Source: Atriophallophorus winterbourni
Taxonomy: Eukaryota; Platyhelminthes; Trematoda; Plagiorchiida; Microphallidae
Reading direction: 5' to 3'
Assembly: GCA_013407085.1 (NCBI GenBank)
Contig: JACCGJ010000551.1
Location: 1-64,000, forward strand
DNA length: 64,000 nucleotides
Below the pieces are notes generated by a model. The model had not been told where the DNA came from, did not search any database, and was given only the letters and a program-made list of their open reading frames with translations. This document shows positions 1-63,414 of this stretch, piece after piece. Within the stretch, counting starts at the first letter, position 1, and each line of letters starts with the position of its first letter. The position numbers and the translations under genes are program-made.

Positions 1-3000
1 ACATTACTTTGGTCATCCACAAGCGCCTTGAGTGCTTTGACCAAGAATCACTTCGTGATTCTTCGTCTGAACATCGTGGTTCGTTGTACAACCCTATATA
101 ACAGTTGGCATACAAGTATAATCTTGTTTACCTTTAATCCACTGTTTCAAGGCTCACTGAACCTGATCTTACTGTCTCCCCCTGACGACGGCAAACAGCC
201 AGAAACCGGTAGTGGTGTGTAAGGGATGGGGATGTGAGCAACACATACTTTGGCATCCAGAACGCGCCTTGAGTGCCTTTGGACCACGAATCAACACTTT
301 TGTGATTCTGTGTCTGAACATCGTGGTTCGTTGTACAAACCCTATATAACATTTGGCATACAAGTATAACTTTTTACCTTTAATCCCTTTTTCAAGGCTC
401 ACTGAACCTGATCTAACTGTCTCCACCTGGCGACGGCAAACAGCCAGAAACCGGTACTGGTGTGTAAGGAATGGGGATGTGAGCAACACATTACTTTGGT
501 CATCCATAAGCGCCTTGAGTGCTTTGACCAAGAATCACTTTGTGATTCTGTGTCTGAACATCGTGGTTCGTTGTACGAACCCTATATAACAGTTGGCATA
601 CAAGTATAATCTTGTTTACCTTTAATCCACTGTTTCAAAGGCTCACTGAACCTGATCTTACTGTCTCCACAGGACGACGGCAAACAGCCAGTAACCGGTA
701 GTGGTGTGTAAGGGATGGGGATGTAAGCAACACATTACTTTGGTCATCCACAAGCGCCTTGAGTGCTTTGACCAAGAATCACTTTGTGATTCTGTGTCTG
801 AAAAATCGTGGTTCGTTGTACGAAACCCTATATAACAGTTGGCATACAAGTATAATCTTGTTTACCTTTAATCCACTGTTTCAAGGCTCACTGAACCTGA
901 TCTTACTGTCTCCACCTGACGACGGCAAACAGCCAGAAACCGGTAGTGGTGTGTAAGGGATGGGGATGTGAGCCACACATTACTTTGGTCATCCACAAGC
1001 GCCTTGAGGGCTTTTGACCAAGAATCACTTTGTATTCTGTGTTCTGACATCGTGGTTCGTTGTACGAACCCTATATAACAGTGGTCATACAAGTATAAAT
1101 CTTGTTTACCTTTAATCCACTGTTTCAAGGCTCACTGAACCTGATCTTACTGTCTCCACCTGACGATGGCAAACAGCCTGAAACCGGTAGTGGTGTGTAA
1201 GGATGGGGATGTGAGCAACACATCTCTTTGGTCATCCACAAGCGCCTTGAGTGCTTTGACCGAGAATCACTTTGTGATTATGTGTCTGAACATCGTGGTC
1301 CGTTGTACGAACCCTATATAACAGTTGGCATACAAGTATAACCTTGTTTACCTTTAATCCACTGTTTCAAGGCTCACTACCTGATCTTACTGTCCTCCAC
1401 CTGACGACGGCAAAAACACCAGAAACCGGTAGTGGGTGTTGTATGATGGGAATGTGAGCAACACATTACTTTGGTCCTCCACCGCGCCTTGAGGTCTTGT
1501 GACCAATAATCACTTTTGTGATTCTGTTCTGAATCGTGGTTCGTTGACGAACCCTATATACAGTTGGCATACAAGCATAACCTTGTTAAACTTTAATCCA
1601 CTGTTTCAAGGCTCAATGAACCTGATCTTACTGTCTCCACCTGACGACGACAAACAGCCAGACCGGTAGTGGTGTGTTAGGGATGAGATGTGAGAAACAC
1701 ATTGCTTTTGTCATCCATAAGCGCCTCGAGAGCTTGACCAAGAATCACTTTGTGATTCTGTGTCTGAACATAGTGGTTCGTTGTACGAACCCTATATACA
1801 GTTGGCATACAAGCATAACCTTGTTAACCTTTAATCCACTGTTTCAAGGCTCATTGTACCTGATCATACTGTCTCCACCTGACGACGGCAAACAGCCAGA
1901 AACCGGTAGTGGTGTGTAAGGGATGGGGATGTGAGCAACACATTACTTTGGTCATCCCATAAGCGCCTTGAGTGCTTTGACCAAGAATCACTTTGTGATT
2001 CTGTGTCTGAACATCGTGGTTGGTTGTACGAACCCTATATAACAGTTGGCATACAAGTATAACCTTGTTTACCTATAATCCACTGTTTCAAGGCTCACTG
2101 AACATGATATTACTGTCTCCACCTGACGATGGCAAACAGCCTGAAACCGGTAGTGGTGTGAAAGGGATGGGGATGTGAGCAACACATTACTTGGTCATCC
2201 ATAAGCGCCTCGAGTGCTTGACCAAGAATCAACTTGTGATTCCGTGTCTGAACATCGTGGTTCGTTGTACGGGAAACCCTATATAAAGTTGGAAACAAGT
2301 ATAAACCTTGTTTACCTTTAATCCACTGTTTCAAGGCTCACTGAACCTGATCTTACTGTCTCCACCTGACGACGGCAAACAGCCAGAAACCGGTAGTGGT
2401 GGGTAAGGGATGGGAATGTGAGCAACACATTACTTTGGTCATCCACAAGCGCCTTGAGTGCTTTGACCAAGAATCACTTTGTGATTCTGTGTCTGAACAT
2501 CGTGGTTCGTTGTACGACCCCTATATAACAGTTGGCATACAAGTATAATCTTGTTTACCTTTAATCCACTGTTTCAAGGCTCACTGAACCTGATATTACT
2601 GTCTCCACCTGACGACGGCAAACAGCCAGAAACCGGTAGTGGTGTGTAAGGGATGGGGATGTGAGCAACACATTACTTTGGTCATCCACAAGCGCCTTGA
2701 GTGCTTTGACCAAGAAACACTTTGTGATTCTGTGTCTGAACATCGTGGTTCGTTGTACGAACCCTATATAACAGTTGGCATACAAGTATAACCTTGTTTA
2801 CCTTTAATCCACTGTTTCAAGGCTCACTGAACCTGATCTTACTGTCTCCACCTGACGATGGCAAACAGCCTGAAACGGGTAGTGGTGTGTAAGGGATGGG
2901 GATGTGAGCAACACATTACTTTGGTCATCCACAAGCGCCTTGAGTGCTTTGACCAAGAATCACTTTGTGATTCTGTGTCTGAACATCGTGGTTCGTTGTA

Positions 3001-5957
3001 CGAACCCTATATAACAGTTGGCATACCAGTATAACCTTGTTTACCTTTAATCCACTGTTTCAAGGCTCACTGAACCTGATCTTACTGTCTCCACCTGACG
3101 ATGGCAAACAGCCTGAAACCGGTAGTGGTGTGTAAGGGATGGGGATGTGCGCAACACATTACTTTGGTCATCCACAAGCGCCTTGAGTGCTTTGACCAAG
3201 AATCACTTTGTGATTCTGTGTCTGCACATCGTGGTTCGTTGTACGAACCCTATATAACAGTTGGCATACAAGTATAATCTTGTTTACCTTTAATCCACTG
3301 TTTCAAGGCTCACTGAACCTGATCTTACTGTCTCCAACTGACGATGGCAAACAGCCTGAAACCGGTAGTGGTGTGTAAGGGATGGGGATGTGAGCAACAC
3401 ATTACTTTGGTCATCCACAAGCGCCTTGAGTGCTTTGACCAAGAATCACTGTGTGATTCTGTGTCTGAACATCGTGGTTCGTTGTACGAACCCTATATAA
3501 CAGTTGGCATACAAGTATAACCTTGTTTACCTTTAATCCACTGTTTCAAGGCTCATTGAACCTGATCTTAATGTCTACACCGCGATGGCAACAGGCCTGA
3601 AACAGGTTAGGGTTGTTGTGTAAGGGATGGGGTGTGAGCAACACATTACTTTGGTACATACACAAGCGCCTTGGTGCTTTGACAAGAATCAATTTGTGGA
3701 GTCTGTGTCTGAACATCGTGGTTCGTTGTCGAACATATATAACAGTTGGCATACAAGTATAACCTTGTTTACCTTTAATCCACTGTTTCAAGGCTCACTG
3801 AACCTGATCTTACTGTCTCCACCTGACGATGGCAAACAGACTGAAACCGGTAGTGGTGTGTAAGGGATGGGGATGTGAGCAACACTTTACTTTGGTCATC
3901 CATAAGCGCCTCGAGTGCTTGACCAAGAGTCACTTTGTGATTTCGTGTCTGAACATCGTGGTTCGTTGTACGAACCCTATATAACAGTTGGCATACAAGT
4001 ATAACCTTGTTTACCTTCAATCCACTGTTTCAAGGCTCACTGAACCTGATCTTACTGTCTCCACCTGCCGACGGCAAACAGCCAGAAACCGGTAGTGGTT
4101 GTGTAAGGGATGGGGATCGTGAGCAAACACATATACTTTGGTCATCACTAAGCGCCTCGAGTGCTTGACCAAGAATCACTTTGTTATTCCGTGTCTGAAC
4201 ATCGTGGTTCGTTGTACGATCCCTATATAACAGTTGGCCTACAAGTATAACCTTGTTTACCTTTAATCCACTGTTTCAAGGCTCACTGAACCTGATCTTA
4301 CTGTCTCCACCTGACGACGGCAAACAGCCAGAAACCGGTAGTGGTGTGTAAGGGATGGGGATGTGAGCAACACATTACTTTGGTCTTCCACAAGCGCCTT
4401 GAGTGCTTTGACCAAGAATCACTTTGTGATTCTGTGTTTGAACATCGTGGTTCGTTGTACGAACCCTATATAACAGTTGGCATACAAGTATAACCTTGTT
4501 TACCTTTAATCCACTGTTTCAAGGCTCACTGAACCTGATCTTACTGTATCCACCTGACGATGGCAAACAGCCTGAAACCGGTAGTGGTGTGTAAGGGATT
4601 GGGATGTGAGCAACACATTACTTTGGTCATCCACAAGCGCCTTGAGTGCTTTGACCAAGAATCACTTTGTGATTCTGTGTCTGAACATCGTGGTTCGTTG
4701 TACGAACCCAATATAACAGTTGGCATACAAGTATAACCTTGTTTACCTTTAATTCACTGTTTCAAGGCTCACTGAACCTGATCTTACTGTCGCCACCTGA
4801 CGATGGCAAACAGCCTGAAACCGGTAGTGGTGTGTAAGGGATGGGGATGTGAGCAACACATTACTTTGGTCATCCATAAGCGCCCTGAGTGCTTTGACCA
4901 AGAATCACTTTGTGATACTGTGTCTGAACATCGTGGTTCGTTGTACGAACCCTATATAACAGTTGGCATACAAGTATAATCTTGTTTACCTTAAATCCAC
5001 TGTTTCAAGGCTCACTGAACCTAATCTTACTGTCTCCACCTGACGACGGCAAACAGCCAGAAACCGGTAGTGGTGTGTTAGGGATGGGGATGTGAGCAAC
5101 ACATTACTTTGGTCATCCACAAGCGCCTTGACTGCTTTGACCAAGAAGCACTTTATGATTCTGTGTCTAAACATCGTGGTTCGTTGTACGAACACAATAT
5201 AACAATTGGCATACAAGTATAATCTTGTTTACCTTCAATCAACTGTTTCAAAGGCTCACTGAACCTGATCTTACTGTCTCCACCTGACGACGGCAAACAG
5301 CCAGAAACCGGTAGTGGTGTGTAAGGGATGGGGATGTGAGCAACACATTACTTTGGTCATCCACAAGCGCCTTGAGTGCTTTGACCAAGAAGCACTTTGT
5401 GATTCTGTGTCTGAACATCGTGGTTCGTTGTACGAACCCTATATAACAGTTGGCATACAAGTATAATCTTGTTTACCTTTAATCCAATGTTTCAAGGCTC
5501 ACTGACCCTGATCTTACTGTCTCCACCTGACGACGGCAAACAGCCAGAAACCGGTAGTGGTGTGTAAGGGATGGGGATGTGAGCAACACATAACTTTGGT
5601 CATCCACAAGCGCCTTGAGTGCTTTGACCAAGAATCACTTTGTGATTCTGTGTCTGAACATCGTGGTTCGTTGTACAAACCCTATATAACAGTTGGCATA
5701 CAAGTATATTCTTGTTTACCTTTAATTCACTGTTTCAAGGCTCACTGAACCTGATCTTACTGTCCCACCTGACGACGGCAAACAGCCAGAAACCGGTAGT
5801 GGTGTGTAAGGGATGGGGATGTGAGCAACACATTACTTTGGTCATCCGCAAGCGCCTTGAGTGCTTTGACCAAGAATCACTTTGTGATTCTGTGTCTGAA
5901 CATCGTGGTTCGTTGTACGAACCCTATATAACAGCTGGCATACAAGTATAATCTTGT
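1..5957 (+). repeat. Hammerhead-ribozyme satellite, ~244-bp unit, ~24 copies
   Basis: A head-to-tail array begins before the window and stops abruptly at about 5957, where the run CAAGTATAATCTTGT passes into unrelated sequence. The unit is about 243-246 bp and copies are mostly over 90% alike, with scattered indels, worst at about 240-420 and 1400-1660. Each unit holds an HHR core (CTGACGA ... GAAACCGGTA). It also holds an 8-bp hairpin AGAATCAC-TTT-GTGATTCT and a 6-bp hairpin GGTTCG-TTGTA-CGAACC, so a unit-length RNA would be highly structured. All open frames through the array are broken by indels and I consider it non-coding. Related single or diverged units occur at 23.3, 41-42, 44.9 and 46.1 kb. 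The array itself is certain. The ribozyme reading rests on motif and pairing seen by eye. Confidence 0.95.
902..957 (+). ncRNA. Hammerhead ribozyme, type I (representative satellite copy)
   Basis: Read 5' to 3': stem I strand CUUAC (902-906), internal loop UGUCU, CCAC (912-915), core CUGACGA (916-922). Then stem-loop II GGC-AAACA-GCC (924-934), GAA (936-938), self-complementary ACCGGU (939-944) and A945. Then GUGG (946-949), loop UGU, and GUAAG (953-957). GUGG pairs with CCAC and GUAAG with CUUAC, giving a two-part stem I with an internal loop, as in natural type I hammerheads. Predicted cleavage is after A945. Weak points: the 10.1/11.1 pair next to the core is C-A, and stem III (ACC/GGU) has no loop, so it would have to form between two RNAs or two tandem units. 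The same layout recurs in most units, for example at 2368, 2611, 4310 and 5286. Confidence 0.75.
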
Positions 5958-10548: not shown

Positions 10549-12345
10549 TTAGAACCCCGGGATCCCATGAGAGTATAGAATATCTATAGAAGAGTTTATC
10601 TTAAGGATTTGGGATAGTGAGTGAACAGTAAGGGTTTCTACAAGAGTTTTAAATTTCCCTGTAGATGTGCACATACGGAAATGAAGAGGGAGGGAATTCC
10701 AAAGTTGCGCATATCTAACTAAGAAGAAGTTACGTCTAACTTTAGTGCGAGACATAGGGGTATTTAACAGCCTTGTTCGATTGCGCAGAACATATCGGAT
10801 ATAATCGTGAAAGCGCATGTCAGACTGGAGCTTAATTCGTTGCTGGGTAATGATTCGAAAGAAAAGAAGCAGATTCAGACGAATTCTGCGTAGCCATAGT
10901 GGTTCGACATTCAGCAAATTACACCTTTCAAGATAAGGCAAGGGGTTTGAATAGCCCAAAGTTATTTTGCTGAAAGTACGTTGAAGTCTCTCTAAGAGAA
11001 AACACTCACGCCTACCCATGTGAGAATAGATAATATTACAATAATCGAGAATTGGTAGGACCTTCATCTTATATAGTGCTATTTTACTCTCGCGTAAGAG
11101 GAATTTATGGTTAATTAAGCTAAAGTTTTGTCTTGCTCTCGCAATGAGGTGTCTGGCTTGTTCATTAAAATTGAGAGAAGAGGAGTATCTAAATCCAAGG
11201 TCCTTAATTTCTGCAGAAGGTGTGATGGTTGAGCCATTTATCGTGAGTGTGCTAGAAGGGATTGAACAACGTAATCCAATATATTGTGTCTTAGAAGCAG
11301 AAAATTCTAATCCCCATTGTGAGCCCCAGTTAGATAGAGAGGCAAGATCACGGTTAAGGGATATCAGGGCCTGTGACACTTCACCAGGAGGAGATGTTAA
11401 GACTACTTTTATGTCATCCGCGAAGATGAATAGCTTAGAGTGATCTACAACATTTTGTAGATCATTAACATAGATAAGAAAAAGAAGTAGACCTAGAACG
11501 CTGCCTTGAATTACGCCACTTGGAATTGGCTGATTAGTTGAGGTAACTCCATTAACGTGAACCGAAAAGGTGCGATCAGATAGAAAAGAACGGAACCAGC
11601 TCAATAAAGGCCCATGGATACCTAAACATGATAACTTCAAAAGGAGTAGCGTATGAGGAACCCGATCGAAAGCTTTGCTTATGTCCAAGAATACAACAAT
11701 CACTGCTAGTCCTTGTTCAAGGGAAGCCGTTATGAGATCTAATTATTCTAACTGGCAGGTTACACAAGACTTTTGGCTAAGGAATCCATGTTGGACTGGA
11801 GAGAACGCATCTGGACCAAGGTAGCCCAACAAAGAATTTTTGACTAACCTTTCAAATAACCTAGACAGAATAGGAGTATGATTAATAGGGCGATATTTCG
11901 TAACGAGGTTCGAATTACCAGATTTTAAACGTGGGATAATAACAGAGTGTTTCCAATGAGTTGGAAAAATTCCACATTTGAGAGAAATATTGAAAAGGTT
12001 AAATAAAGGTAAAGGAAAGTCTTCATTATCGTTTTGTAAGATGGCTGAAATAAAACCTACATCATCAGGCTTATAAGATATTTTACTTAAACGAGAAATG
12101 TCTTTTACTTCTTGTACAGAAAAAGTAAAGGAATCAATAGTATTTAAGGGAGTGCTATTGTTTGTTGGTGGATGGTAAGGGTTGTTATTGAACGAGCTGC
12201 TGAAGAATAAAGAGAAAGCCTGACTTATTGTGACCGCATCAGAAGTGACTATTTCTTCATCATCTTCGTGGTATATTATGGAGGGAATATCATGTGTTGA
12301 CCGGATGCACCTGGTCTTCGAAAGGTAATTTAATGATTTCGTCAT
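10549..12345 (-). pseudogene. CR1/Jockey-like non-LTR reverse transcriptase, one in-frame stop
   Basis: The minus strand carries about 598 codons in one frame, broken by a single TAA at 11743-11745. The N-terminal part (12345-11746) ends with KYRPI and GFLSQKSCVTCQLE. After the stop, the palm continues: VVFLDISKAFDRVPH (motif A), GVIQGSVLGLLLFLIYVND (motif B) and KLFIFADDIKVV (motif C, FADD). The thumb and C-terminus follow, ending YSHGIPGF. No endonuclease was found upstream. An internal stop with otherwise intact frame suggests a relatively recent copy; the stop could also be a sequencing error. The family is common in flukes and the product would be an RT for target-primed insertion. Confidence 0.88.
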
Positions 12346-21700: not shown

Positions 21701-24700
21701 AGTGTAGAGGGTAGGGTTACACCACGTCAATCGCTCTCCCTGTTTGATCATCTATCATACTGTAATGGAAAATGTTCGTGACCGATCGGGGAATCATAAT
21801 CATGAAACAAGAAAGTTTGTAATGAATCAGTGAGAGTAGTTAATTGGTAACGTTAAGCAAGCGTCAGAGGGGATAAGTTGAATCTTAAATAAAGTAGGTA
21901 TACGAGTAACATATAAAAGGGTAGATCTCTCCGATCCTTATTACCGCATCTGAAGGATAAGACACCTTCAGGTTGCGCGACGAATTCTGTATATAAAATC
22001 AACTGCAAGGGTTTCTCGGGAGTATATATCGGGCAAACATCCAGAGAACTCAGTAAGTGATCACAAAAATCGAATCGGTAAGCAGTCACGCAATTCCAGT
22101 GAATATCAATCACTGATCAGAGATTCAGCACTAGCTGAACACGTGCTTGACCCCGGTCACAGTGTTGATCTTGATAACGTAGAAGTGACAAGGCGGGGTA
22201 ATAAAACCATACATTGAACGACTTCACGCAGAGGCGGTTGAGATAACAAAAGCTGGTAAGAATGCAGCGGATAAAAATTAACGTGTGTGACCCCTAGTGT
22301 GCGCATCGATTACGTAATCGAGCTAATCTGTCAACAGATTTCATTCACACCTGCCAAGACCAAAACAATTAAGAGATTATACGGCACGTAGGGGTGGTGG
22401 TGCGTCAGTTGATATTCAACACGTCTGTCTACCTTAACGAGCGCAGAACCCACCATGGACTGTGCAGTACTTAACCACCTTAGGATTGGTCAGGTGAATG
22501 AAATTTAAGAATGATCTCTGCTCGTACTGACACCCTTGGTCTAACGAAGCTTCTGAGTTTTTGTTTGTGTGTATGTATGCATGTATGAAAGCACAAGCCC
22601 GATCTAGGCAAACTGCCACACAATAATAGACTGCAGGTGGGCTAATATGTTGTCAGTTTGCCCAAGACTAGACATAAATGAGGAAGAAAAAATAACAGGA
22701 AATGGTAGTGAGAATCCAGCGTGTTTCAGCATGCAGCTCACTACCCGTGGCCAATCAATTTAGCACGGTGTTAGCCGCACAGCACCGAATACTGCACGAT
22801 TGCACATCCGTGCCTATGTAAGATAAGCATATTTTGTTTTTGTCATGTGGCGTATGGTATGCACGGTTGTGCTTGCACACTACAGATCTACCGAAGAAGA
22901 AAATGGCTTTATTCCTGTACACGAAATTTTGTTTTCCACGAAGCTAAGAAATGTATAAAATCACACAATCCTGCTCCACGCTTTGTCGCATAATAAATAC
23001 CGAAATAGTGTCACGTTACCTTGGGCTAGACAGGCGGCATGCCAATGAACTTAGGAAATGAAGTTAGACAATTGACGAGAAAATCTCAACATCAGTTATC
23101 AAATTGTCTGGCGCATTTTCAAGTCTAAAACAGCCAACGATTAATTAACCATGTATCGTGCCAGGTATGGAACGAAAGAGTTTCCGAATTTATTAGCAAA
23201 TAAAATATTTGCTTCTGGTGGAGAAAAAAATTTGCACGCAACAAGGGTCTTGTTCATTGGATGTGAACTATCCATAAGCGCCTTGAGTGCTTGACGAAGA
23301 ATCACTTTGCGATTCTGTGTTTGAACATCCTGGTTCGTTGTACGAACCCTATGCAACAGTGGCATTCAAGTATAACCTTGTTTACCATTAATCCACTGTT
23401 TCAAACGCTCACTGAACCTAATCTTACTGTCTCCACCTGATGACTGCAAACAGCCAGAAACCGGTAGTGGAGTGTAATTTCGGGGGATGTGAGCAACACA
23501 TCACTTTTATCAGAAGAAATGTTTTTGATCAATCTGTTGCATTCACAATCCGCGATAGTGTCTAGAATTAAATCCGTGGAAACACAGCTCAGTCTCCAAT
23601 ATACGGTCGTAAATGACAAAACCTCTCTTTGCGATACCGATGCCGGGTGGTGTCCTGCAGGGTGCCATACGGTCCCCATTTTATTTTCTATTTACATTTC
23701 TGATCTTCCTTATAACCCTTCTGCATGTACTATTAAATACGCCGACGACCTTCCCGTTTCATTGAACCACAATAGTCCAGTCGGCCAACATGCTTTAGAA
23801 TCAATGATTACAAGCATTGGTCAATGGTCATCCACACGAAATGGTATTTTCCAACGTGACTGGACAGCGATGTTTCATTTAATGCTTGAAAGATGTAGTA
23901 GCTTCAAGTACCTTGGCGTTAAAGCATCCGACAGTCTTAGCTGGAGTCTCACTACCGTTTCCTCTTCTATTTTCCATTCCCATATTTGCCTCGGCCTGGG
24001 CAATCTGACAGTATCTTAGCCCATGTGCAGACTGACTGTGTGGCATTTTGCCGTTTGCTTTCATACTCCTTTTACTGCTTCATGATGCTTGTCACTTTGT
24101 CTAGCCCCAAATCTAGGTTTCATGATGTTGGTGATAATCTGTGGGTGATCTCCACACCAAACAGCCAGAATACCTGAAATCTGTCATGTCTGTCTTGGTC
24201 TGGGCAACCTGACAGTATCTCAGCCCACATGCAGTCTCTAACTGTGCCGTACTTTGCCTGGATCAGTCTTGTGCCTTCATACCATACCATACCCGAAATC
24301 TCTCTATCGGCTATTCCTCATTTCATATTTTGCACGATTTGCTTTTCCTGCTTCATATTGTTGATGTCCAAGCTTTTTTGTGTAACGAAATTGTTGTTCG
24401 GAAAAGCTCAAGGTGGCTCTTAGTCGTGCAATCTTCTACAGTAAGCCTTTTCGCCACTGTCGCCTGACTCTATTTGGTCTTATTCCCCCCTTGCTGTCTA
24501 GTCATTTATGGATTTCGAAGTCGATGACTGCTCGGTTCCCCATCATCCTTTTGGTCATTCTCGATGCTAGTGGAGTATCAGCTCTAGATTGAACAACCCT
24601 TTCCCTTCCGTGCATCTGCCAAACCTCCATCCACGTTTATTGCATGCCCCGTTTTGCAGATTTTCCGCATGGAATTCAGCGATCCCGTGACGCGAGAAAT

Positions 24701-33700: not shown

Positions 33701-36700
33701 AACTGGGTTATAACCCCGCATAAAAATTTGCTTTTAGATGACTGCAGTGCACACTTCAACTGGTGTCTAGGCCTGGGCAACCTGACAGTAACTTAGCCCA
33801 CGTGCAGTCTCTGGCTGTGCGGCACTATGCCTGGATAAGGCTTGTGCTTTCATACCATACATACTGGTGATAGTCTTGCTTCTCTGATTTCCCTTCCACA
33901 TTCCTTGGTTGAGAATCCCATCGATTAACAAGACACCGCATCTGACAAATCGCCTAAGCACAGACTCCAGAGTGCCTTCATGTTATCAGCTCGATATTTG
34001 TACTGTGCAACTATTGTGTTGGCCTCCATCGGTCGATATGGAGTCTGAATGTACATCACTATCGCATGATGCTTTCATGAACCATAGACTGTTTGGAATG
34101 ACTAAACAGTCCGATTCCGCGGGAATAATTTCTCCTGTAGCGCTCACTCAGTCGATTGATGTCAGTTGCATGCTCTTTGGTGTGATCTACGTTCAGCAAC
34201 CGCGAAACCAGTGTCTTCTCTTATTCACCTCGAGCATGACGCTTTACAAAGTACCTCTGCGTACGCACCGATGCTCTCCGCAATAAGTTGTTCGATAGTA
34301 ATGTTGATATAGAGAAGCAGATCAATCTGCATAGGTTACGTTGGTTGGTTCAGGTTTTACGGATGCCGGACCACCGACTTTCGAAACGGATTCTTTTTGC
34401 GATGCCACATCCTGATTGGCGTAAATCTCGGGGTGGCGTAGGTAGTTAAAAACCCTTACTAGTAACCTTTCCAAAGTCGGCGTAGTGCGATTAGATATCG
34501 CAATGGCTTCAGTATATGTCCCGAAACCATGTTCAATGGCGGTCTTGCACTAAGCATCTTCGTGGAGTGTTTGCTTAACCTTGTATGTTGTCAAGCGGAG
34601 TGACAGTCATAGCCGCACGGAAGCTGTCGTGTTGATGTCGCTCTGCTCGTTCACGAAACTTGTTTGAATGTAGGTGTAGGCACCTCATTCCAGTTTGTTT
34701 GTGCTTACTCTTCTATAGAATCCGTAGCTATTTAAGTCCCACCCTTCCTCATCTTTTAGGATTTTATTTTTTCATGGTTGTATGGCAGTTAAACATTCGG
34801 TACGTGCTACCAGTGTAATGCTGTCTGCGATGATGATGACACAATGTGAGCGGTCATGAGCATGTTTCCGAACTCGTGGGGTGAAGAGCTTTCATCTCGC
34901 TTTTGCAAACGTCTTTGTACCGCGAGTGGAGTCTGCCGACTTCCTGAATTCAATTCACCATAAAATGTAGATAAGACCGTGCTACATTTATTTGACACCG
35001 GTGGTAAACTGCATGCGAAAACACGCTGAAGTCTCACTGCAATTTCTATTTTCATCTTTCATATTTGTCTAGGTCTGGGCAACCTGACTGCTTGTTAGCC
35101 CATGTGCCTTCTATGGCTGCGCGGTACTTTGCCTGGATCATCCTTGTGATTTCATACATACATACATTACATACATACATACATACATCATACATAATAC
35201 ATACATACATACATACATACATACATACATACATACATACATACATACATACATACCATACATACATACATACCGCGTGGATACTAAATGCTTTACTGTA
35301 CGGCAGTGAAACCTGGACCACCCACGCAAGACACAAATGGAAGCTGAATGCTTTCCATCTACGAAGCATCCGTCGTATCTTGAACATATCGTGGATGGAC
35401 AGAGTGACTAATGCTGAAGTGCTTTCAAAAGCTGGTCTACAGAGCATGTTCACCCTATTACGACAGCGCCGCCTGCGGTGGCTTGGTCATGCCTACAGAC
35501 ATTACAAACATTGAACCACTCTACGACTTTGTTCCAAAACCCTGGTCCTTTAAACTTTGACTCACGGAAAAACAGTGATGGTACCTACTTTTACGTATGT
35601 GGGCAGCTGTGTCAACTGACCTTGACCGTGTTCACTTGGATCAGTTTGATATGGATACACACTAGTAGGAAAATCGACCACTGATCCTGGTCATTCCCAC
35701 GATATGTGACACACGGTAAGCGTAGTATAGGTTGTTTAGCGGTAAGGTCAAATAAGTGGTGGTGGGTTGACTACTACTTAATCATGTTCCCTGTCCTGAC
35801 TATCACCCTTGGTCTGACGAAGCTTCTGTGTCAGAAGTGAAACGTTACCCAAAACTACTCTAACCGATTGCACACAAATTCCTTTGCATTATGAATACAC
35901 GATCGGTCCCAAATATATTCCAATCGATTGCTGAGTGCTGATACCCTGGTTTCTCTAAAATCTACTCTCTGCATGCTAATCTGCACTCGACCTACCTCGC
36001 GGTTCTTGTAGTAGTGCTGCGTCTGAAAAGTACTTTGACGTCACGTGATAAGGCGGATTAGAGCTCGTTCTGGTCTTGTGTTCTGGCGTGTCCTGATCAG
36101 GACACAACCACCGAGATGTAGAATCCGCTCACGTACGCGTGTGGTGTGAACTCGCACGATGTGCTGTGTGAGTGGCGTCTGTGTCTGTTCATTCTAGTCC
36201 TGAGTGTGTAAGCGCTTTGCTGAGATTCCAATTTCTCACGGTATCCTGGCCGAATTATGACCATCACGCAAGCAGCTCTACTGGTTTAATCAGGATTGTT
36301 TCTTCACCGTACCCTACTACGTCAGTGCTGTCTAGGTCATGTGTACAGAATGGGGAATGGTTGTGTTCCCTGTGGAGGATTAAAATCAGGAAGTCCACCT
36401 TTTGACAGGCTACAAGCACGTTTGCAAAAGAGACGTGAAGGCTCTCCACATTGACCCTACGAGTGGGGAAGAACTTGTTCTTAAGCGCTCACATTGGAGG
36501 CACTGTGTAAAACGTCTTCTGCAAGCTGAGGAATAGAACATACGCCGTCAGCATTCAACTGACAGCGTTCGACTGCCTATCGTTATGAGCGTTGTGGGAG
36601 AGATTGTTCCATCAAATTGAATTGTCAGGTCATTCGATACGCTGTGAGTATGATCCGTGGTCAGCATCGGCCGTAGGAGACTAACAACAACATGAACCTA

Positions 36701-39700: not shown

Positions 39701-42700
39701 CCTGTCTATATCGCATGATTTGCATACCATTTGGGTTTACAATTCAATAATTATCCAGGCAAAGTACCGCGCAGCCATAGAAGGCACATGGGCTAACAAG
39801 CAGTCAGGTTGCCCAGACCTAGACAAATATGAAAGATGAAAATAGAAATTACAGTGAGATTTCAGCTCTTCAAATGTCCCACATACCAAATATGCGTTCA
39901 GACTGTAAAAATAAATTAAAAAAACCGATGTCAATCATTTCATGTAATGTCACGAGTTAGGACGCTAATTGGGTTGCGTTTTATAGATGGTGGACCAACG
40001 ACTTCCAAAATGGTTTCTTTTTGCGACGTCACTTCCCAATTGGCGTAAATCTTGGTGGCCAAACCGCCACACGTCATAGACAGTAATATTTCCAAATTTG
40101 CGCTAGGGTTCAGGCGATCAGCTACCGCAGCAGCTAATTGAATGAATGAATGAATGAATGAACGCACAAGCCGGATCCAGGCAAAGTGCCGTACCGTGAG
40201 AGACTGCACGTGGCAGCTAATTACGCTTCAGGGTGTATCCCGAAACCATGTTTGCTGGCGGTTTTGCAGTCAGCATCTCGGAGTGCTTGTTTAACCTTTA
40301 TGTGGCCAAGTGAAGTGACGAGAAAAACTGTCGTGCTGATGTCTTTTACTCATTCACGAAACCTGATTGAATGCTTGTTCCATTCAAGGTGTAAGCACCT
40401 CACTGCTGTTTGTTTTTTCTTACTATTAAGTAGATTCCGTAGCAGTTCAAGTCCAGAGCACGGATGTGCAATTGTGCAGTACTTATGTGCGGCTAACACC
40501 GTGATAAATTGATTGGCCAGAGGTAGTGAGCTGCATGCTGAAACAGGCTGGAGTCTCACTATCATCTTTATTCTCTATTTCTTATATCTGTCTAGGCCTG
40601 GGAAACCTGACAGTAATATCGCCCATGTGCAGTCTCTGACCCAAAACTGCTCTAACAGATTGCATACAAATTTTTCCCGTTATGACTACACGATCGGTCC
40701 CAACTGTATTCCAATCAATCGACCCCCCGTCCACTTTCCTCTCGACGTCAAAGTTTCCCTTGTCAGTCGTTCCCCAGTAGTCGCAAAACGCAATGAACGA
40801 ACTCTCCAAACACTCTGCCCAATTCCCTTTCCTCCAATAGCACTTTTCTCCCACATTTTCAGCAGACTTATTTCAATGATTCTTCTCGCAGGTTGCACTC
40901 CAGTTGGCCTATGCTCGTCTACATCCTGACCTACTTCCGCCGCCCACTTATGAATCTGGATCGTTGCGACGTTTCTTTCTCGGACGAACAGACCACCATT
41001 CGTTCGTGAGCCAAGAAAGCTGCGTTTCACAAAGCAATCACAAGCTCGGTTGAGTCCATAACCAAGTGACGCTTGTATGCCATTGTTGGATAAGGTTGGT
41101 CCGACCAACCTGTTCAATCACGTGAGCCCACACTCATGTAGACTGGGTTTGAACCCATGACCATGAAGAAAAAAAGCGCATTTGCATGCATCTCCATCAC
41201 TCGCACACACCAAGATCGGTGTCGTGCTCTTTGCACTCATTAGGTAGGGACAGTAGGATCAGGATCCGCATGCGCTTGAAACAGTGGAAGAATTGGGAAA
41301 AAATGAGCGCGTGGTATGTGACTGTTGGGATAGGCTGGTACGACCAACCGTTCAATCACATGAAGCCCCCAAGGTGTTGTAGATGGGTGAAAACCCATGA
41401 CCATGAATATAAAAGCTCATTGGCATGCATCTCCATCAAACACACACCCTACGACCGGTTTCGTGCTGTTTGCACTCACCAGGTAGGGACACTAAGGTCA
41501 GGATCCGCATGTGCTTGAAACAGTGGAGGAATGGTAAACAATGAGCGCTTGTATGCCACTGTTGGATAAGGCTGGTACGACCAACCTGTTCAATCACATG
41601 AGCCTCCACTCGTGTAGACTGGGTGTAAAACCCATGACCATAAATATAAAAGCTCATTGGCATGCACCTCCATCACACACACACACCCCAGGAGTGCATG
41701 CGGATCCTGATTCCACTGTGCCTACCTGATAAGTGCAAACAGCACGAAACCGGTCATGGGGTGTGTGTGTGTGTGATGGAGATGCATGCAAATGAGCTTT
41801 TATATCCATAAACTGTTCTCAAAGCTCGCAATTTCTGGGGATGTTCGACGTCATCAAGTGGAGATAGTAAGATTCTGTTCAGCGAGTCCTGAAACAGTTA
41901 AAAACCATTTGTAATCAGATTTACAAGACCAACCTTGGGATATAATTGAACCAATAAAATCAATGGATAATTGACCGGTTTCTGGCTGTTCTCATTAGGT
42001 TGAGACAACATGCTCAAGGGCTCCTATTTTCCCTGCATTTTGTCGCATTCCGATGGAGACTTGGTTGTCTGTTTGGGTCGTAGTTTACGTACGTCGTCCT
42101 TGTAATGTTCAGTGACGGTCTTGTTGTAGACATCTCCTTGGAGTGTTTGATTCATCTTGAAGTGGCGTGACTGTGAAAGCCGTAAAGAAGCTCTCATGCT
42201 GATGTAACTTGCAAGTCTCAATCTATTCGACTCTAGCTACCGCCGTCTAAGAGCTTATTTGATACTTACGTTTAATATACTGCATACCCCCAACCATCCC
42301 CTAAATCAACTATTCACGCAACTAAGACCCAGAACCAGCCGGAGTCACGACTATACAGTACTTATTCCCGACTCGAGGCTGAACTGTCGAAGGTACTTTT
42401 ATTCTGTACGTGAATGCTTTACCTGGAACTGTTGCACATTCACCCAACGTGGATATATTCAAATCGAATTTGGACAATTTCATGTTGACCAATCCAAACT
42501 TTGAACCCATATATTTTACACCATAAAAGCTTTGAACTTTGAAAACAGTTTCTGTCCTATGGATTTTTTTTACCTGATTCCTGAACTGCTCAGTAAGCAA
42601 ACAAATTTCGTTTTTTTTTCTATCCATGTTATTCGTAATTCCCATATTATTCTGTGGTTTTTGTCAAGCTATATGCTTTTTAGACCCTTAAAATTGAATT

Positions 42701-45496: not shown

Positions 45497-45742
45497 GACT
45501 TTCACCGACGTTGCTTGGCAACCGGAATGCCTTTGCTCAATTTCGCTAAAGCGATTCGTTTCTCTATACTGTTGATTGTATTTTATTATATATTTCTAAC
45601 TATTCGTTACGTCAATAGTTGTGTGATAATTCTTTGTGTTTAAATCGTTCAAATACATTTATTGATTTTACCATGATGCCCGCGCAGTTCAAATGAATGT
45701 GACGGGGTTATTTGTTAAGCACAGACTGACCAAGCGGTAGAT

Positions 45743-45965
45743 GATATGAAAGCACAAGCCTGATCCAGACAGTTATAGACTTCACGTGGGCTAAGATACT
45801 GTCCAGTTGCCCAGGCCTAGACAGATATGAGGGAGGAAATAGAAAAAGAAATGGTAGTGAGACTCCAGCCAGTTTCAACATGCAGCTTACTACTTGTGGC
45901 CAATCTATTTAGCACGGTGTTAGCCACACAACACAGAAGTGCTGCACGATTGCACCTTCGTGCAA
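45743..45965 (-). repeat. SINE-like repeat copy after CRAT
   Basis: GATATGAAAGCACAAGCC through TGCACCTTCGTGC, with a small deletion near 45770. Confidence 0.8.
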
Positions 45966-46111
45966 GTTGTGGACAAGTCGAATTCCAAGTACATCCTCAG
46001 TAAATTCAAAGTTCCAGCCTCACTTGCTCCCGTCTTTTCGTTTCCAATCTGAATCTGCTCGTTACACTTGATGCGTTTTGTAAACTTACTTTTGGTGCGC
46101 TTTGTCTTTAT

Positions 46112-46175
46112 ACGACCGGTTTCGTGCAGTTTGCACTCATCAGGTTAGGGACAGTATGATCGGGATCTGCTTGCC
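46112..46175 (-). ncRNA. Hammerhead ribozyme with a canonical core, truncated unit
   Basis: Minus strand: CUGAUGA (46143-46137), GUGC-AAACU-GCAC (46136-46124), GAA, ACCGGU (46120-46115), C, GUA. The core and stem II match the consensus exactly. Upstream on the same strand are GUUUCAAGGCAAGC and GAUC.AUACUGUCCCU, as in family 2. The stem I partner is lost beyond GUA because the unit is cut at about 46110. Confidence 0.65.
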
Positions 46176-47539: not shown

Positions 47540-48409
47540 CAATTAGTGTTCTTGACGAATCTGCATCTACTTTCTTCACGTTACTGATTCCAATGGATTT
47601 CCTTCGGGCTCCTACTGAATTCTGGCCCTCTGGAGCTGAAAAGCCTACTTCGGATGATTGGAAAAATTGGAAAAATTCATTCTGTGACTTTGTGGACTTA
47701 CTCTGTGTCCAAACCAGAATATTTAACTAATCCAGTGATTTTGCTGAAATTACTACGTTCTAATCTTGGTCGTGAAGGCTCACGAGTATTCGATGATTTA
47801 CAGTTGGCCAAAGTGAAAGACTTCAGAGAAGCATTTACTGCGCTAGATAAATGCTGGGGTCCTCGAGTAAACAAATATGTTGCCCGGTTTCGTTTCTCGA
47901 AGGTTTGCCAAGAGTCCGGAGAACCAGTTGATGAATTCATAACCAGACTACTGCATGCAGCTCGTCCGTGTGAATACAACAATATTCCTCTAAAGAAAGT
48001 TGAAGATACGTTCTTAATACAACAACTCCTCATGGGATTATCTGACAATGGCACGCGTGAAGCAATCCTGACTCATAATGCAAAAAAATTGGAGTGGGAC
48101 ATCGCGTGTGAGATTGCTAGAACGAAATACGATGTTAAGGAGGGAAACAGGCTATTTCAGCATCCCACAAGTTCTGAGTCACATCGAATCAACGTCACAC
48201 AAGCTACAAGTAGTATGAACATCAGCTCCATGAAATGCTATCGTTGCGGCAGTACACAACATAAGGCAAACTTTCAATCCTGTCCAGCATTAAAAGCTCA
48301 ATGTCGAGTTTGCGGTAAGCAAGGACATTTTGCCCGGGTGTGTCGTGGCCGCCGAGTCAACCTTATCGATTCTTGTCCCCATGAATCGGAAAAAAATTTG
48401 ATGACGTAA
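47540..48409 (+). CDS. Gypsy-type Gag with two zinc knuckles (one frameshift)
   Basis: A structural Gag-like protein of a Gypsy (Metaviridae-like) retroelement. The first frame (from MDFLRAPTEFWPSG at about 47593) carries SDDWKNWKNSF. A one-base shift near 47700 leads to the second frame, which runs NPVILLKLLRSNLGREGSR, ALDKCWGPRVNKYVARFRF, GEPVDEFITRLLHAA and FLIQQLLMGLSD. It ends with two CCHC knuckles, CYRCGSTQHKANFQSC and CRVCGKQGHFARVC. Stop at 48407-48409. A slippery heptamer lies just before the stop, with the protease in the -1 frame. Apart from the one shift, the frame is intact, so the copy is fairly young. Confidence 0.85.
48391..48397 (+). promoter_or_regulatory. Candidate -1 frameshift heptamer A-AAA-AAT
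   Basis: In the Gag frame the codons are GAA-AAA-AAT. The heptamer fits the X-XXY-YYZ rule, and slipping by -1 gives AAA-AAA-TTT-GAT-GAC. That frame stays open into the protease frame. The Gag stop is 10 nt downstream. I did not find a clear downstream pseudoknot, and a run of seven A can also be an indel artefact. Confidence 0.45.
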
Positions 48410-49812: not shown

Positions 49813-51641
49813 ACTTTTGCTTTGATATATGTTGTCCACAGGAAACTATTTTTGTTCGACCTGATTGTTTTTCCTCCAATAAATTGAAGCGCCTCCGAAG
49901 ACTGAAGGAAAAGGCTTTCAAAAATCTTGATCGTCACGCTGTCTCTCAGCTGTCTTCATTAATCAAGCTTGAGATTCAACGCATGCGAGATATTTATGTG
50001 AAATCAATTTTGAGAACGAATAACAGTCGCCAATTATGGAGTGCGCTCAAAGGTTTGTGTGGCAAAGACAGAAAGGTACTTCCCTTTATCCGTGATATAA
50101 ATTCATTAAATGAATCTTTTTTATCTTCTCCTGATGGAACCCAAGAAATCCCTGATTTTGTTTTACCCCCATCCTCTTTCTCAACTCCGACTTTTACAAG
50201 CTCAGTGGAAGTTATGCAGTCACTTTTCGCTGTATCCCGCTCAAAGGCTGCAGGCCCCGATAATCTTTCCCCTCTTTTGCTGAAAGAATGCGCACGTGAA
50301 CTTTCTTCGCCGATCTCTTCTATCTTCAACAGATGCATTGAGAGAAGTATTTTTCCTGACAGTTGGAAGCCGGTACGTATTACACCAATCCCAAAAAATG
50401 ATCCTGGGAAGTACCGCCCCATTGCGTGTACGTCGCAGCTACTCAAAGTACTGGAAAGTATAGTGCTACGACGACTTGTTTCGAGTTGCCAGGTAGAAGA
50501 TTCGCATCAGTTCGCGTACCGCAAAAATCGTTCGACAGTAGACGCACTCGCGTTGCTAACTGACCATGTATCCCGGTCATTAGATTCGAAATCAAAAGCG
50601 GTACAGGTTTGTTTTCTTGATTACACCAACGCTTTCAACAGTGTTATCAGAAGTTCTTTGCTCAAAAAACTTCATGATTGTGGTGTACCCCTGAACCTAG
50701 TTCACTGGATAGCGTCCTATTTTAAGGACCGCGTGCAGTATACTGCCGTGAATGGTAAAGTGTCCAATTCTGTAACGATTTCTCGCGGTGTTCTACAAGG
50801 CGCAATACTTTCACCCTTCTTATTTTCTATCTACATTTCTGATCTTCCTTGCTTTCATTCCACTCTTATTCTAAAATATGCTGATGACATTGCTGTTGTT
50901 TTTGACCACCATAGACGTGCTGACTCTCCCACATCTGAAATTATTATCAATGACATTGGCCAGTGGTCATCATCGCTCGGCTTATCGTTAAACCCTCAAA
51001 AATGCAAAGAGGTAATATTTTCAAACTTAGCTGGTCAGCGTCGTGAAACTCTGCTTCAAGGAATTCCTACGATTTCCTTCAATGGCTCGAACTTCAGCAG
51101 AAGCGCATGTTTCAAGTATCTTGGGGTCATTTTATCACAGAGTCTCAAATGGACCGATCATGTGACTGCACAGTACTTGAAGGTAAGAAGGTTATCATTT
51201 TACGCCTTACGTCTTCGTTATTTAGCTGTTCCTCCTGATGTAGTTAGATGTTTTGTTTTTTCTTGCCTTGTTCCCATTTTAATCTACGCATCCCCTATAA
51301 TTTTTCCTGGTCTTTTTGAAAAGGATTTTTTGATGATCAGAAGAGGAATCAAATTAATTTCAAGATTGAGCTCTTCCTCCACCGAGTTGATTCGTGATAT
51401 GGTCGTCGAACGACACTTTCGTGAATGTGACAGATTGGTCAGAGTCATATCGTCTGATAATGCACACCCACTGCATGAGGTCCTTATGGCTTGCAGATCG
51501 TTCCCAGCCACGCGTAGTCAACATATCGTCCCGTATGCAAGAACTGAGAAATTTAAAAACTCTTTCATTCCTTACCTGGCTCGATATTTGGTTGATCGTA
51601 CAAAAGTTATTCTCGATTTGAGGAAGAAACTGACAGTATAA
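49813..51641 (+). CDS. CR1-like non-LTR reverse transcriptase, intact frame
   Basis: A long uninterrupted frame (585 codons from 49884; open back to about 49785, CDVFTSYLNFCFDICC). Fingers: SKAAGPDNLSPLLLKECARE and DPGKYRPIACTSQLLKVLES. Palm: VCFLDYTNAFNSVIRSSLLK (A), ISRGVLQGAILSPFLFSIYI (B), ILKYADDIAVVF (C, YADD) and LGLSLNPQKCKEVIFS (D). Then KYLGVILSQSLKWTDHV and a C-terminus ending NSFIPYLARYLVDR. With the APE domain it forms an ORF2 with one frameshift, a young copy. The 3' UTR is short (to about 51755). A relative, broken and rearranged, is at 23141-23900. Confidence 0.92.
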
Positions 51642-51764
51642 TAACTGAAGTGGGATCATCTTTATTTGACATGTATTTTTTTATGTACATTTTATTACGT
51701 GTGGTCGAATTAATTGTATCGCTGAAAATTCGTGTACTCGAATAAAGCCATTTTCTTTCTTTTT

Positions 51765-52565
51765 TCTTCCAACCACAGTCTGTTACTACAAAAATTGGAG
51801 CAATGTGGCATCAAGTATTCATTACAAACCTGGTTTCAGGAGTATCTCCGCGACCGTGTCATTCGAGTAAGGGTTGACGGTGATTTATCACGACCCATTG
51901 CAGTAACGAGTGGGGTGCCGCAGGGATCAGTGCTTGGACCAATTCTTTTCCTGTTCTATATAAACGACTTACCTAAACTTGTTCGCAGCAAAATCTTGTT
52001 ATTTGCGGATGACATCAAGCTGCGGACACAAGTACGCACAACTGAAGATTGCAGACAGCTTCAGCTGGAACTCGATGCCTTACAGAACTGGTCAGTTAGA
52101 AATGAACTACCTTTCAATTTCAGAAAATGCAAGGTACTGACTGTTGGAAGACATTTCGAGTTCTCTTACACCCTTAATTCCCATTTTCTTGAAAGCACTG
52201 ACAAGGAGAAGGACTTGGGTGTGTGGGTGAGCAGCACGTTGAAACCGTCGCATAACGCCACAGCTGTCTATGAAAAGACGTCACGACTACTGCTTCTTCT
52301 AAAACGCGTGTTCGGGATTTTCACGGAGCAAACTGTTCATCGAATAATTAATACGTACTTGAGGCCAACCATAGGTTCAGGCTTGGTCATCCTGGCTACA
52401 GAAGGACATCAGCTTCTTGCAGAGAATACATCATCGTATGTGGTTTAAAACATAAACAATACGAAGATCGGATTACAAGCCTCAATCTCTTCGACTTTCG
52501 GTACCACCGTCTTAGAGGCGGCTTGATTCTTATGTTCAATATACTGCATACCCCCAACCATATAT
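51765..52565 (+). mobile_element. L2-like non-LTR element, 5'-truncated RT
   Basis: Starts mid-palm with NHSLLLQKLEQCGIKYSLQT. Then VTSGVPQGSVLGPILFLFYI (B), KILLFADDIKLRTQ (C, FADD), LPFNFRKCKVLTVGRH and KDLGVWVSSTLKPSHNA. The frame closes at 52448; 52480-52560 continues in another frame with the L2-like YHRLRGGLILMFNILHTPNH, as at 42240. The 5' end abuts the CR1-like 3' UTR. Confidence 0.85.
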
Positions 52566-59312: not shown

Positions 59313-61155
59313 AAACCCATGACCATGAATATAAAAGCTCATTGGCATGCATCTCCATCAAACACACACCCTACGACCGGTTTCGTGCTGTTTGCACTCA
59401 CCAGGTAGGGACACTAAGGTCAGGATCCGCATGTGCTTGAAACAGTGGAGGAATGGTAAACAATGAGCGCTTGTATGCCACTGTTGGATAAGGCTGGTAC
59501 GACCAACCTGTTCAATCACATGAGCCTCCACTCGTGTAGACTGGGTGTAAAACCCATGACCATAAATATAAAAGCTCATTGGCATGCACCTCCATCACAC
59601 ACACACACCCCAGGAGTGCATGCGGATCCTGATTCCACTGTGCCTACCTGATAAGTGCAAACAGCACGAAACCGGTCATGGGGTGTGTGTGTGTGTGATG
59701 GAGATGCATGCAAATGAGCTTTTATATCCATAAACTGTTCTCAAAGCTCGCAATTTCTGGGGATGTTCGACGTCATCAAGTGGAGATAGTAAGATTCTGT
59801 TCAGCGAGTCCTGAAACAGTTAAAAACCATTTGTAATCAGATTTACAAGACCAACCTTGGGATATAATTGAACCAATAAAATCAATGGATAATTGACCGG
59901 TTTCTGGCTGTTCTCATTAGGTTGAGACAACATGCTCAAGGGCTCCTATTTTCCCTGCATTTTGTCGCATTCCGATGGAGACTTGGTTGTCTGTTTGGGT
60001 CGTAGTTTACGTACGTCGTCCTTGTAATGTTCAGTGACGGTCTTGTTGTAGACATCTCCTTGGAGTGTTTGATTCATCTTGAAGTGGCGTGACTGTGAAA
60101 GCCGTAAAGAAGCTCTCATGCTGATGTAACTTGCAAGTCTCAATCTATTCGACTCTAGCTACCGCCGTCTAAGAGCTTATTTGATACTTACGTTTAATAT
60201 ACTGCATACCCCCAACCATCCCCTAAATCAACTATTCACGCAACTAAGACCCAGAACCAGCCGGAGTCACGACTATACAGTACTTATTCCCGACTCGAGG
60301 CTGAACTGTCGAAGGTACTTTTATTCTGTACGTGAATGCTTTACCTGGAACTGTTGCACATTCACCCAACGTGGATATATTCAAATCGAATTTGGACAAT
60401 TTCATGTTGACCAATCCAAACTTTGAACCCATATATTTTACACCATAAAAGCTTTGAACTTTGAAAACAGTTTCTGTCCTATGGATTTTTTTTACCTGAT
60501 TCCTGAACTGCTCAGTAAGCAAACAAATTTCGTTTTTTTTTCTATCCATGTTATTCGTAATTCCCATATTATTCTGTGGTTTTTGTCAAGCTATATGCTT
60601 TTTAGACCCTTAAAATTGAATTGAATTAATCGTGTGTAACACTTGCTTGGATAGACGTGTTTGATTTGATGATTTTAATGTGCCATGGTTGTATGGCCGT
60701 TAAGCGCTCGGCGTATGTTACCAGTGTAATGGTATCCATCAGGAAGATGCTGATCTGTTAACTCAATTTATTCGCCTCCTTCTCACGAGAGTGTGGGCTA
60801 CATCATGGTAGTCTTCCAACGAGGCTTTTATGAATTTCAACGAGCATCTCAGGTTTAGTCAGCAGCAGTTGTAGTTTATTGTAGAGCTTTAATTTCCTCT
60901 TCTCAAAGCGTTTTCTGAAATCTCGTGTGCACCTGGAGGTTCAAAGACTGGCATTCGCCCGATTGTTTGCTTGCCGAGCGGAACAATTCCGGCTGTCTGA
61001 GTGCTGTAAAACGATCCGAACTGTTATCTGCTTGATTCCATCTTTTCTGTCGACCGTCCTTCACTTGTAGTAGTTAGTTTATGCTTTAATTCAATGCGGG
61101 TGGTCATTACCCCCTCAGCCCAACCCAGAATTGTTGATCCTTTCTCGCTCTTCAG

Positions 61156-61392
61156 AGCCCAACTTCCAAACCCAATCTCGCCAAACTGCTCCAGGATGCC
61201 CTGAAGCGACACCAAGAGTTCACACAAGAAACGCTCGCCGGTCAAGGCTTTGATCGTCATTTACTGGGACTTCGTCTTTTGGCACATTCGCTGTCTCAAA
61301 ATGCTCCGGACTCTGCGAATGCTTCCACGCAAATCCTGTTCACGGATCCAACCTACGCTGCCGCCAACACGTATCGTCTGTCCACCAGTCAG
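61156..61392 (+). CDS. CRAT exon 9, second copy
   Basis: An intact copy of exon 9 with splice sites. It differs from 43234-43470 by TYAVAS to TYAAAN (two amino acids) and one silent change. It has no exons 1-8 in the window; they could lie only in the gap or not exist. Confidence 0.85.
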
Positions 61393-63204: not shown

Positions 63205-63414
63205 GTACGCAGCCCAAACGATTGCGCCGTGGTGTTCGGTCCGGTCATCCCTCAGGGTTACGGTGTGTGTTACAACATTCACCACGATTCCATTCAAATT
63301 ACCGCCACTTCATTCTGCGATTCGGTGGAATCCGGCACTCCCGAGGATCTGATCAATGAGCTGTCACGGGCGATGCTGGACATGAAAGAATTGTTGCAAT
63401 CCACCGAGGTCTGA
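63205..63414 (+). CDS. CRAT exon 10, second copy
   Basis: Intact, with the stop at 63412-63414. Four residue changes from 45287-45496 (R to C, E to D, L to I, Q to E) plus silent changes. It is either a second allele, a paralogue or an assembly product. Confidence 0.85.
   Translation, partial: VRSPNDCAVVFGPVIPQGYGVCYNIHHDSIQITATSFCDSVESGTPEDLINELSRAMLDMKELLQSTEV

Follow-up and report, generated by a model that had tools for sequence, protein, structure and literature searches.

The first 64,000 bases of contig JACCGJ010000551.1 (90,766 bases) of the trematode Atriophallophorus winterbourni, hereafter the window, open with a tandem array that is most probably made of copies of a non-LTR (non-long terminal repeat) animal retrozyme, namely a 243-bp non-coding, non-autonomous retroelement with a type I hammerhead ribozyme (HHR) on the + strand of each unit. 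We favor this reading because of the anatomy of the ribozyme, the related copies present elsewhere in the assembly (537,331,230 bases in 15,840 contigs) and the signs of mobility that these copies display.

The array and its hammerhead motif

Tandem Repeats Finder (TRF) resolved positions 1-5957 into 24.5 copies of a 243-bp period with 92% matches, in agreement with a first-pass annotation, made from the sequence without database searches, which had described a satellite of about 24 units of ~244 bp. Since the window begins at base 1 of the contig, the array is truncated on its left side. The 23 core-to-core intervals measure 238 to 246 bp, and the 23 units that they delimit share on average 91% pairwise identity. 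The GC content of the five units examined is 0.439-0.453, thus below 50%, for 0.43 in the window. Comparison of the array with viral contigs, prokaryote contigs and plasmids returned no match, as expected for an animal repeat. Unit positions are given below as nucleotides past the predicted cleavage site, which lies at 243/1.

The usual unit contains the motif CTTAC-UGUCU-CCAC-CUGACGA-(C/U)GGC-AAACA-GCC(A/U)-GAA-ACCGGU-A / GUGG-UGU-GUAAG. Judged by its sequence, this is a type I hammerhead; it comprises the core and stems I, II and III, of which stem I is split in two by an internal loop. Stem III is reduced to the palindrome ACCGGU, and loop II is AAACA, close to AAAUA in the Rfam type I consensus; with the internal loop of stem I and loop II both present, contacts between the two loops can be envisaged at the sequence level. 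A covariance model of the lineage, built from the array and related sequences, finds the HHR domain in 24/24 units, by construction. Fifteen of them keep every core residue and stem that was tested (CTGANGA, GAA, A15.1-U16.1, H at the cleavage site, 4/4 pairs in CCAC/GTGG and 3/3 in GGC/GCC), the remaining nine being altered in the core or a stem or carrying an indel, and the outer arm of stem I, CTTAC/GTAAG, is exact on both sides in 16/24. A chance origin of the motif was ruled out, as 60 dinucleotide shuffles of the whole window, read on both strands, yielded 0 sites. The hammerhead noticed in the first-pass annotation is thus confirmed on the + strand of all units, with varying damage; its description missed a mismatch, common to the 24 units, at the foot of stem II. 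In unit 4, cleavage is expected from the HHR model after A945 (945/946).

The mismatch concerns the 10.1-11.1 pair, which is non-standard throughout the array, being C.A in 15 units and U.U in nine, with changes on the two sides always linked. This pair is described as the most conserved one after A15.1-U16.1, and U10.1-U11.1 as a natural occurrence and the best tolerated mispair at this place (Perreault et al. 2011, PMC3088659). We counted exact matches to a degenerate motif that covers the array family and a sister family, and obtained 10,669 occurrences in the 537-Mb assembly and 0 for the reversed control. The 10.1-11.1 states among these exact genome copies include 4,011 C.A, 1,008 U.U and 288 U-A. 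The first 100 motif places listed, read by eye, comprise 48 C.A, 23 G-C of the second family, 5 U-A, 4 U.U and 20 others, and the 119 motifs readable in 27 loci, some of which are parts of one array, comprise 67 C.A, 34 U.U, 5 U-A, 2 G-C and 11 others (one C-G). As C.A and U.U are shared by many dispersed copies, the mispair has been copied to many places and is normal for the family, not a sign of decay in the array.

Further support comes from the comparison of copies. When one random unit was taken for each of 32 loci (some of which may belong to the same array), identity to the consensus of the array was 0.958 over 12 core residues and 0.905 outside the domain; the core value is matched by 8/243 circular offsets (the true offset counted among them). 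This constraint on the core provides modest evidence for selection. Of the 44 positions printed, N7, a free position of the core, varies most (0.59), followed by 10.1 and 11.1 (0.72). Among 25 distinct sequences of the two families, the 10.2-11.2 pair of stem II is G-C in 20 and U-A in 4, and one pair of stem I is U-A in 2 and U-G in 2 in place of C-G. The covariation score, one of five measures, is 0.104 versus 0.060 for shuffled alignments; it was reached by 0/500 shuffles and was lower in all six slid versions. Because stem II is mismatched and stem III is minimal and palindromic, a single ribozyme is predicted to be slow, likely needing paired copies. A simple energy model assigns -30.7 kcal/mol to two domains arranged as a dimeric hammerhead, versus -23.8 for two separate minimum-energy monomers.

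Dispersed copies and their ends

A search of the assembly for the array family gave at least 109 matches, with 40 of the 154 candidates scored. Several copies measure one unit plus about 100 nt (L037, 335 bp; L046, 340; L027, 341; L028, 343; L012, 345; L016, 359) and therefore carry hammerhead sequence at both ends. The window holds one more copy of the family, a circularly permuted unit at 23270-23507, for which a target-site duplication was looked for and none was found.

The ends were studied on hand-picked insertions, 26 with both ends, plus nine further arrays or copies used for their ends only (of which C4051 has both). Left out were L005, L029/L038, L041 and L054 (composite, old or with no end inside the stretch); L013, L014, L021, L022, L030 and L032 (parts of arrays represented by L050-L053 or L054); L025 (no inside end); L040 and L044 (flanks identical to those of L039 and L045); and minor extra fragments in L034, L035, L048, L049, L050 and L051. 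L009 is the window itself. Half of the ends of RNA-3' type (21/42) fall at unit positions 35-47 and 10/42 at 154-166, for 2.2 expected in each; the count of 21 ends in a 13-nt span was unmatched in 5000 random sets. The ends of L015 and L052 share flanks (84% over 150 nt); when they are counted as one, the two figures become 21 and 9 out of 41. No end of either type, among 62 in all, lies within 11 nt of the predicted cleavage site. A linear self-cleaved monomer would end at 243 and could not yield a copy crossing 243/1; therefore, as far as the sequence of the copies tells, the template that was copied is a circular or an uncleaved multimeric RNA, intact at the cleavage site. In addition, 8/26 insertions are inverted pairs whose two outer ends are both of RNA-3' type, and four of these eight have one end at 161-162.

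The flanks of the same 26 insertions were compared with each other. The summed similarity of the true flank pairs was reached by 0/5000 permutations, a match score of at least 12 was obtained for 5/26 insertions versus 1/650 cross pairs, and a score of at least 8 for 13/26 versus 46/650. Exact 13-nt repeats occur at L031 and also at L028, where the repeat lies 12 nt beyond the start of the alignment. Taken together, these data support putative target-site duplications, longer than 4 bp, for the copies as a group.

The unit also contains TATATAA at positions 127-133 (e.g. 1072-1078), ~30-60 nt before a weak cluster of 5'-type ends at 165-195; this stretch is a possible internal promoter.

Known hammerhead elements and competing explanations

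Non-LTR retrozymes have been described in animals, platyhelminths being named among the carriers (Cervera & de la Pena 2020, PMC7229834). The array resembles the elements of that report in its tandem units (150-450 bp there), its type I HHR, a GC content below 50%, its few to tens of copies and the target-site duplications of more than 4 bp. It differs from them in its commonest 10.1-11.1 state, as no case of C.A was found in the main text of PMC7229834 or in section 8 of PMC3088659, in the preferred ends at ~41 and ~161 and the inverted pairs, which are not described in the main text of PMC7229834, and in a circular fold that is not clearly better than shuffles. Hammerheads with U10.1-U11.1 are the nearest case of a natural mispair at the foot of stem II, called surprising in PMC3088659, whereas the exact copies counted here have about four C.A for each U.U. 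In the axolotl, as reported in the main text of PMC7229834, HHR_Amex1, whose helix III is a single pair capped by a palindromic tetraloop, cuts better as a dimer, and HHR_Amex2 has U.U at the base of helix II, cleaves alone 22% in an hour and also does better as a dimer. The ribozyme of the array joins both weaknesses, a weak helix III as in Amex1 and a mismatched foot of helix II as in Amex2, in a unit of 243 bp, compared with 330-350 bp in the axolotl and newt satellites. A limited full-text literature search for flatworm retrozymes and for HHRs of Opisthorchis or Clonorchis sinensis returned nothing relevant, and we make no claim of absence from print. As we read it, the array is a retrozyme of a recognized kind whose ribozyme is an unusual variant and whose insertion ends are informative.

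Several results weigh against the retrozyme. No Rfam hammerhead was found in the array, either at the gathering score, which none reached anywhere in the window, or at E<=1, nor in one array unit searched alone at E<=10; all 24 units escape the Rfam models and the array, not reaching the gathering threshold of 34 bits, is not filed under RF00163 (Hammerhead_1) despite its hammerhead core. The miss is likely due to a stem III made of a bare ACCGGU and to the mispaired 10.1-11.1. A copy of the second family in the window, with a G-C foot pair, obtains 26.4 bits with the Rfam hammerhead, below the same cut-off. Two of the five covariation measures are unremarkable: four pairs changed on both sides were equaled by 119/500 shuffles and by two slid versions, and eight pair types by 179/500 shuffles, which is not significant. 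The 10.1-11.1 pair fails in 21/25 distinct sequences, and the whole 56-nt domain is unexceptional between loci (39/243 offsets as high). Folded as a circle, the consensus unit gives -62.9 kcal/mol with 58% of its bases paired, for a shuffled mean of -57.0 (z -1.3; 22/200 shuffles as low). The best two-strand fold (-31.7 kcal/mol) is other than the dimeric hammerhead, and the best single-domain fold pairs the CTG of the core with the CGG of stem III and is not the active one. As for mobility, the insertions were picked by hand and their ends are those of BLAST alignments, 5'-type ends cluster weakly (186/5000 random sets as high), and the flank scores of the other 13/26 insertions are below 8. 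The first-pass annotation had also seen a retrozyme-type HHR satellite in the array. This view keeps its support from the anatomy, the related copies and the mobility, and loses some of it with the miss by Rfam and the circular fold: the Infernal search with the Rfam type I models had been proposed there as a check, and zero matches in the array is half of what was named there as refuting it, while the compact circular RNA imagined there turns out to be a weak idea.

The mismatch in 24/24 units, the further damage in 9/24 and a hammerhead no better conserved within the array than the rest of the unit (0.948 vs 0.958; 214/243 offsets as high) would fit a plain satellite with a relic hammerhead, in which a family that once moved has kept an inactive, mispaired ribozyme and the array grows by unequal DNA exchange. 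Selection on the HHR inside the array is indeed not visible in these values, as expected if the units are homogenized together. We consider such a relic unlikely, since the mismatch is common to the dispersed copies, both in the 27 loci and genome-wide, the core residues are somewhat more conserved between loci, and an axolotl HHR with U.U at this place still cleaves (PMC7229834, main text), U.U being the best tolerated mispair (PMC3088659); these last two points bear on U.U only, not on C.A.

It is much less probable still that the unit is the terminal part (pLTR) of an autonomous Penelope-like element (PLE) with minimal hammerheads, instead of a separate retrozyme. The very short stem III and the head-to-head inversion in 8/26 insertions would fit such an origin, and 17 matches to GIY-YIG endonuclease open reading frames (ORFs) were obtained in the assembly. 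By their motifs these ORFs may belong to PLEs, and their presence in the assembly also speaks for the retrozyme reading. On the other hand, the copies consist of tandem units or, in several cases, of one unit and a further ~100 nt that follow without intervening sequence, and no reverse transcriptase with GIY-YIG endonuclease was found within the element; stem I is in two parts with an internal loop; and the GIY-YIG ORFs, three of which were checked, are located apart from the retrozyme copies. The five loci with these endonucleases returned no Rfam HHR, a weak test given that Rfam misses the array HHR as well. Still more remote is a tRNA-headed short interspersed nuclear element (SINE) with a hammerhead, similar to Sm-alpha of schistosomes, although a family of this type seems present in the assembly. 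This third family, retrieved with RF00163, has at least 32 matches, 27 of them above the cut-off (74 of 96,317 candidates scored), and in five of eight loci (L001, L003, L004, L006 and L008 of L001-L008) a canonical HHR is preceded by what we take, by eye and from box motifs, to be a tRNA-like head. Like Sm-alpha and Sj-alpha (PMC6155905, PMC4918200, PMC3653858), the array would be an HHR-bearing retroposon of a fluke, Sm-alpha being a non-autonomous trematode retrotransposon with a type I HHR (PMC6155905). However, the 243-bp unit differs in sequence and in stems II and III, and the schistosome repeats are reported with a tRNA (PMC4918200), whereas ARAGORN found none in the window, no separate scan of the unit for RNA polymerase III boxes having been made.

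We thus return to the retrozyme, for whose RNA we infer self-cleavage and circularization. Multimeric transcripts would be cleaved after the A closing ACCGGUA (e.g. 945/946), mainly when two HHRs of one transcript join through the ACCGGU palindrome into a longer stem III, and host tRNA ligase would close the 243-nt monomers into circles. A reverse transcriptase supplied by a different element, a PLE or another non-LTR one, would then copy the circular RNA or an uncleaved multimer, with most starts at unit position ~41 and fewer at ~161. The products would be copies that exceed one unit by ~100 nt, more extended arrays, and inverted pairs. A bolder proposal, which we put forward tentatively and with more doubt than confidence, is that the lineage is founded on the C10.1-A11.1 mispair, cuts only as a palindromic dimer in multimeric RNA, and has multiplied into thousands of copies, its template being circular or uncleaved RNA that is reverse transcribed from the two start sites, often from both sides of the target, hence the inverted pairs. 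If so, a weak single ribozyme would protect the circle from re-opening; in PMC7229834, in the main text, both the mobilizing enzymes and the escape of circles from re-cutting are left open. With more than 10,000 exact motif copies, natural variants at 10.1-11.1 and dispersed copies that have patterned ends and span the cleavage site, the assembly makes two questions testable, namely if dimers of a C.A hammerhead are able to cut and if the integrated template is circular.

Other hammerhead families and features of the window

The array and the second hammerhead family of the window, found at 41.06-41.8 kb, are homologous over ~170 nt (73%); the members of both are listed in Table 1. The second family, part tandem and part inverted, also occurs at 59313-59722, and degenerate hammerhead-like matches lie on the - strand at 44937-44992 and 62855-62910 (25.8 bits to the lineage model).

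Table 1. Positions of the array, its hammerhead domains and the other hammerhead copies of the window (C.A and U.U, state of 10.1-11.1; "intact", intact save 10.1-11.1)
Feature	Positions	Strand	Remarks
243-bp tandem array	1-5957	+	24.5 copies; right end at ~unit position 159-160; left cut by contig start
HHR unit 1	168-223	+	C.A; stem I 3/4 pairs
HHR unit 2	413-468	+	C.A; core A6 changed; stem I 3/4 pairs
HHR unit 3	657-712	+	C.A; damaged core
HHR unit 4	902-957	+	C.A; intact; predicted cleavage 945/946
HHR unit 5	1146-1201	+	U.U; intact
HHR unit 6	1386-1445	+	damaged, indels; 10.1-11.1 state taken from MAFFT alignment
HHR unit 7	1627-1680	+	damaged; GAAA with 2-nt deletion
HHR unit 8	1865-1920	+	C.A; intact
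HHR unit 9	2109-2164	+	U.U; intact
HHR unit 10	2352-2407	+	C.A; intact
HHR unit 11	2595-2650	+	C.A; intact
HHR unit 12	2838-2893	+	U.U; tests passed, yet stem III is ACGGGT
HHR unit 13	3081-3136	+	U.U; intact
HHR unit 14	3324-3379	+	U.U; stem I 3/4 pairs
HHR unit 15	3567-3620	+	heavily damaged
HHR unit 16	3809-3864	+	U.U; stem II 2/3 pairs
HHR unit 17	4051-4107	+	C.A; core A6 changed
HHR unit 18	4297-4352	+	C.A; intact
HHR unit 19	4540-4595	+	U.U; intact
HHR unit 20	4783-4838	+	U.U; intact
HHR unit 21	5026-5081	+	C.A; intact
HHR unit 22	5270-5325	+	C.A; intact
HHR unit 23	5513-5568	+	C.A; intact
HHR unit 24	5756-5810	+	C.A; intact
Dispersed array-family copy	23270-23507	+	one circularly permuted unit, position 46 round to 41-42; 90% identical
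HHR domain of this copy	23423-23478	+	C.A plus second stem II mismatch
Second family, 239-bp array and inverted copy	41060-41800	- and +	stem II GTGC/GCAC; G-C at 10.1-11.1
Second-family HHR domains	41202-41257, 41441-41496, 41712-41767	-, -, +	one core change each: CTAATGA, CTGGTGA, CTGATAA
Isolated second-family-type HHR	46102-46158	-	core CTGATGA; G-C at 10.1-11.1

Matches to Rfam microRNAs at 35198, 41662 and 59584, below threshold, were dismissed, as their places coincide with a simple repeat and with inverted copies; a CATA microsatellite occupies 35153-35273. Reverse transcriptase ORFs or remnants are found at 10549-11703 (-), 49884-51641 (+) and 51732-52448 (+), with one more at 23489-24019 (+) slightly under the Pfam cut-off, and a zinc-knuckle ORF at 47654-48409. 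Finally, the segments 41391-46082 and 59313-64000 share 99.5% identity across 4,692 bp; the second comes immediately after a gap of 1000 N, and the pair represents either a local duplication or an assembly artefact.

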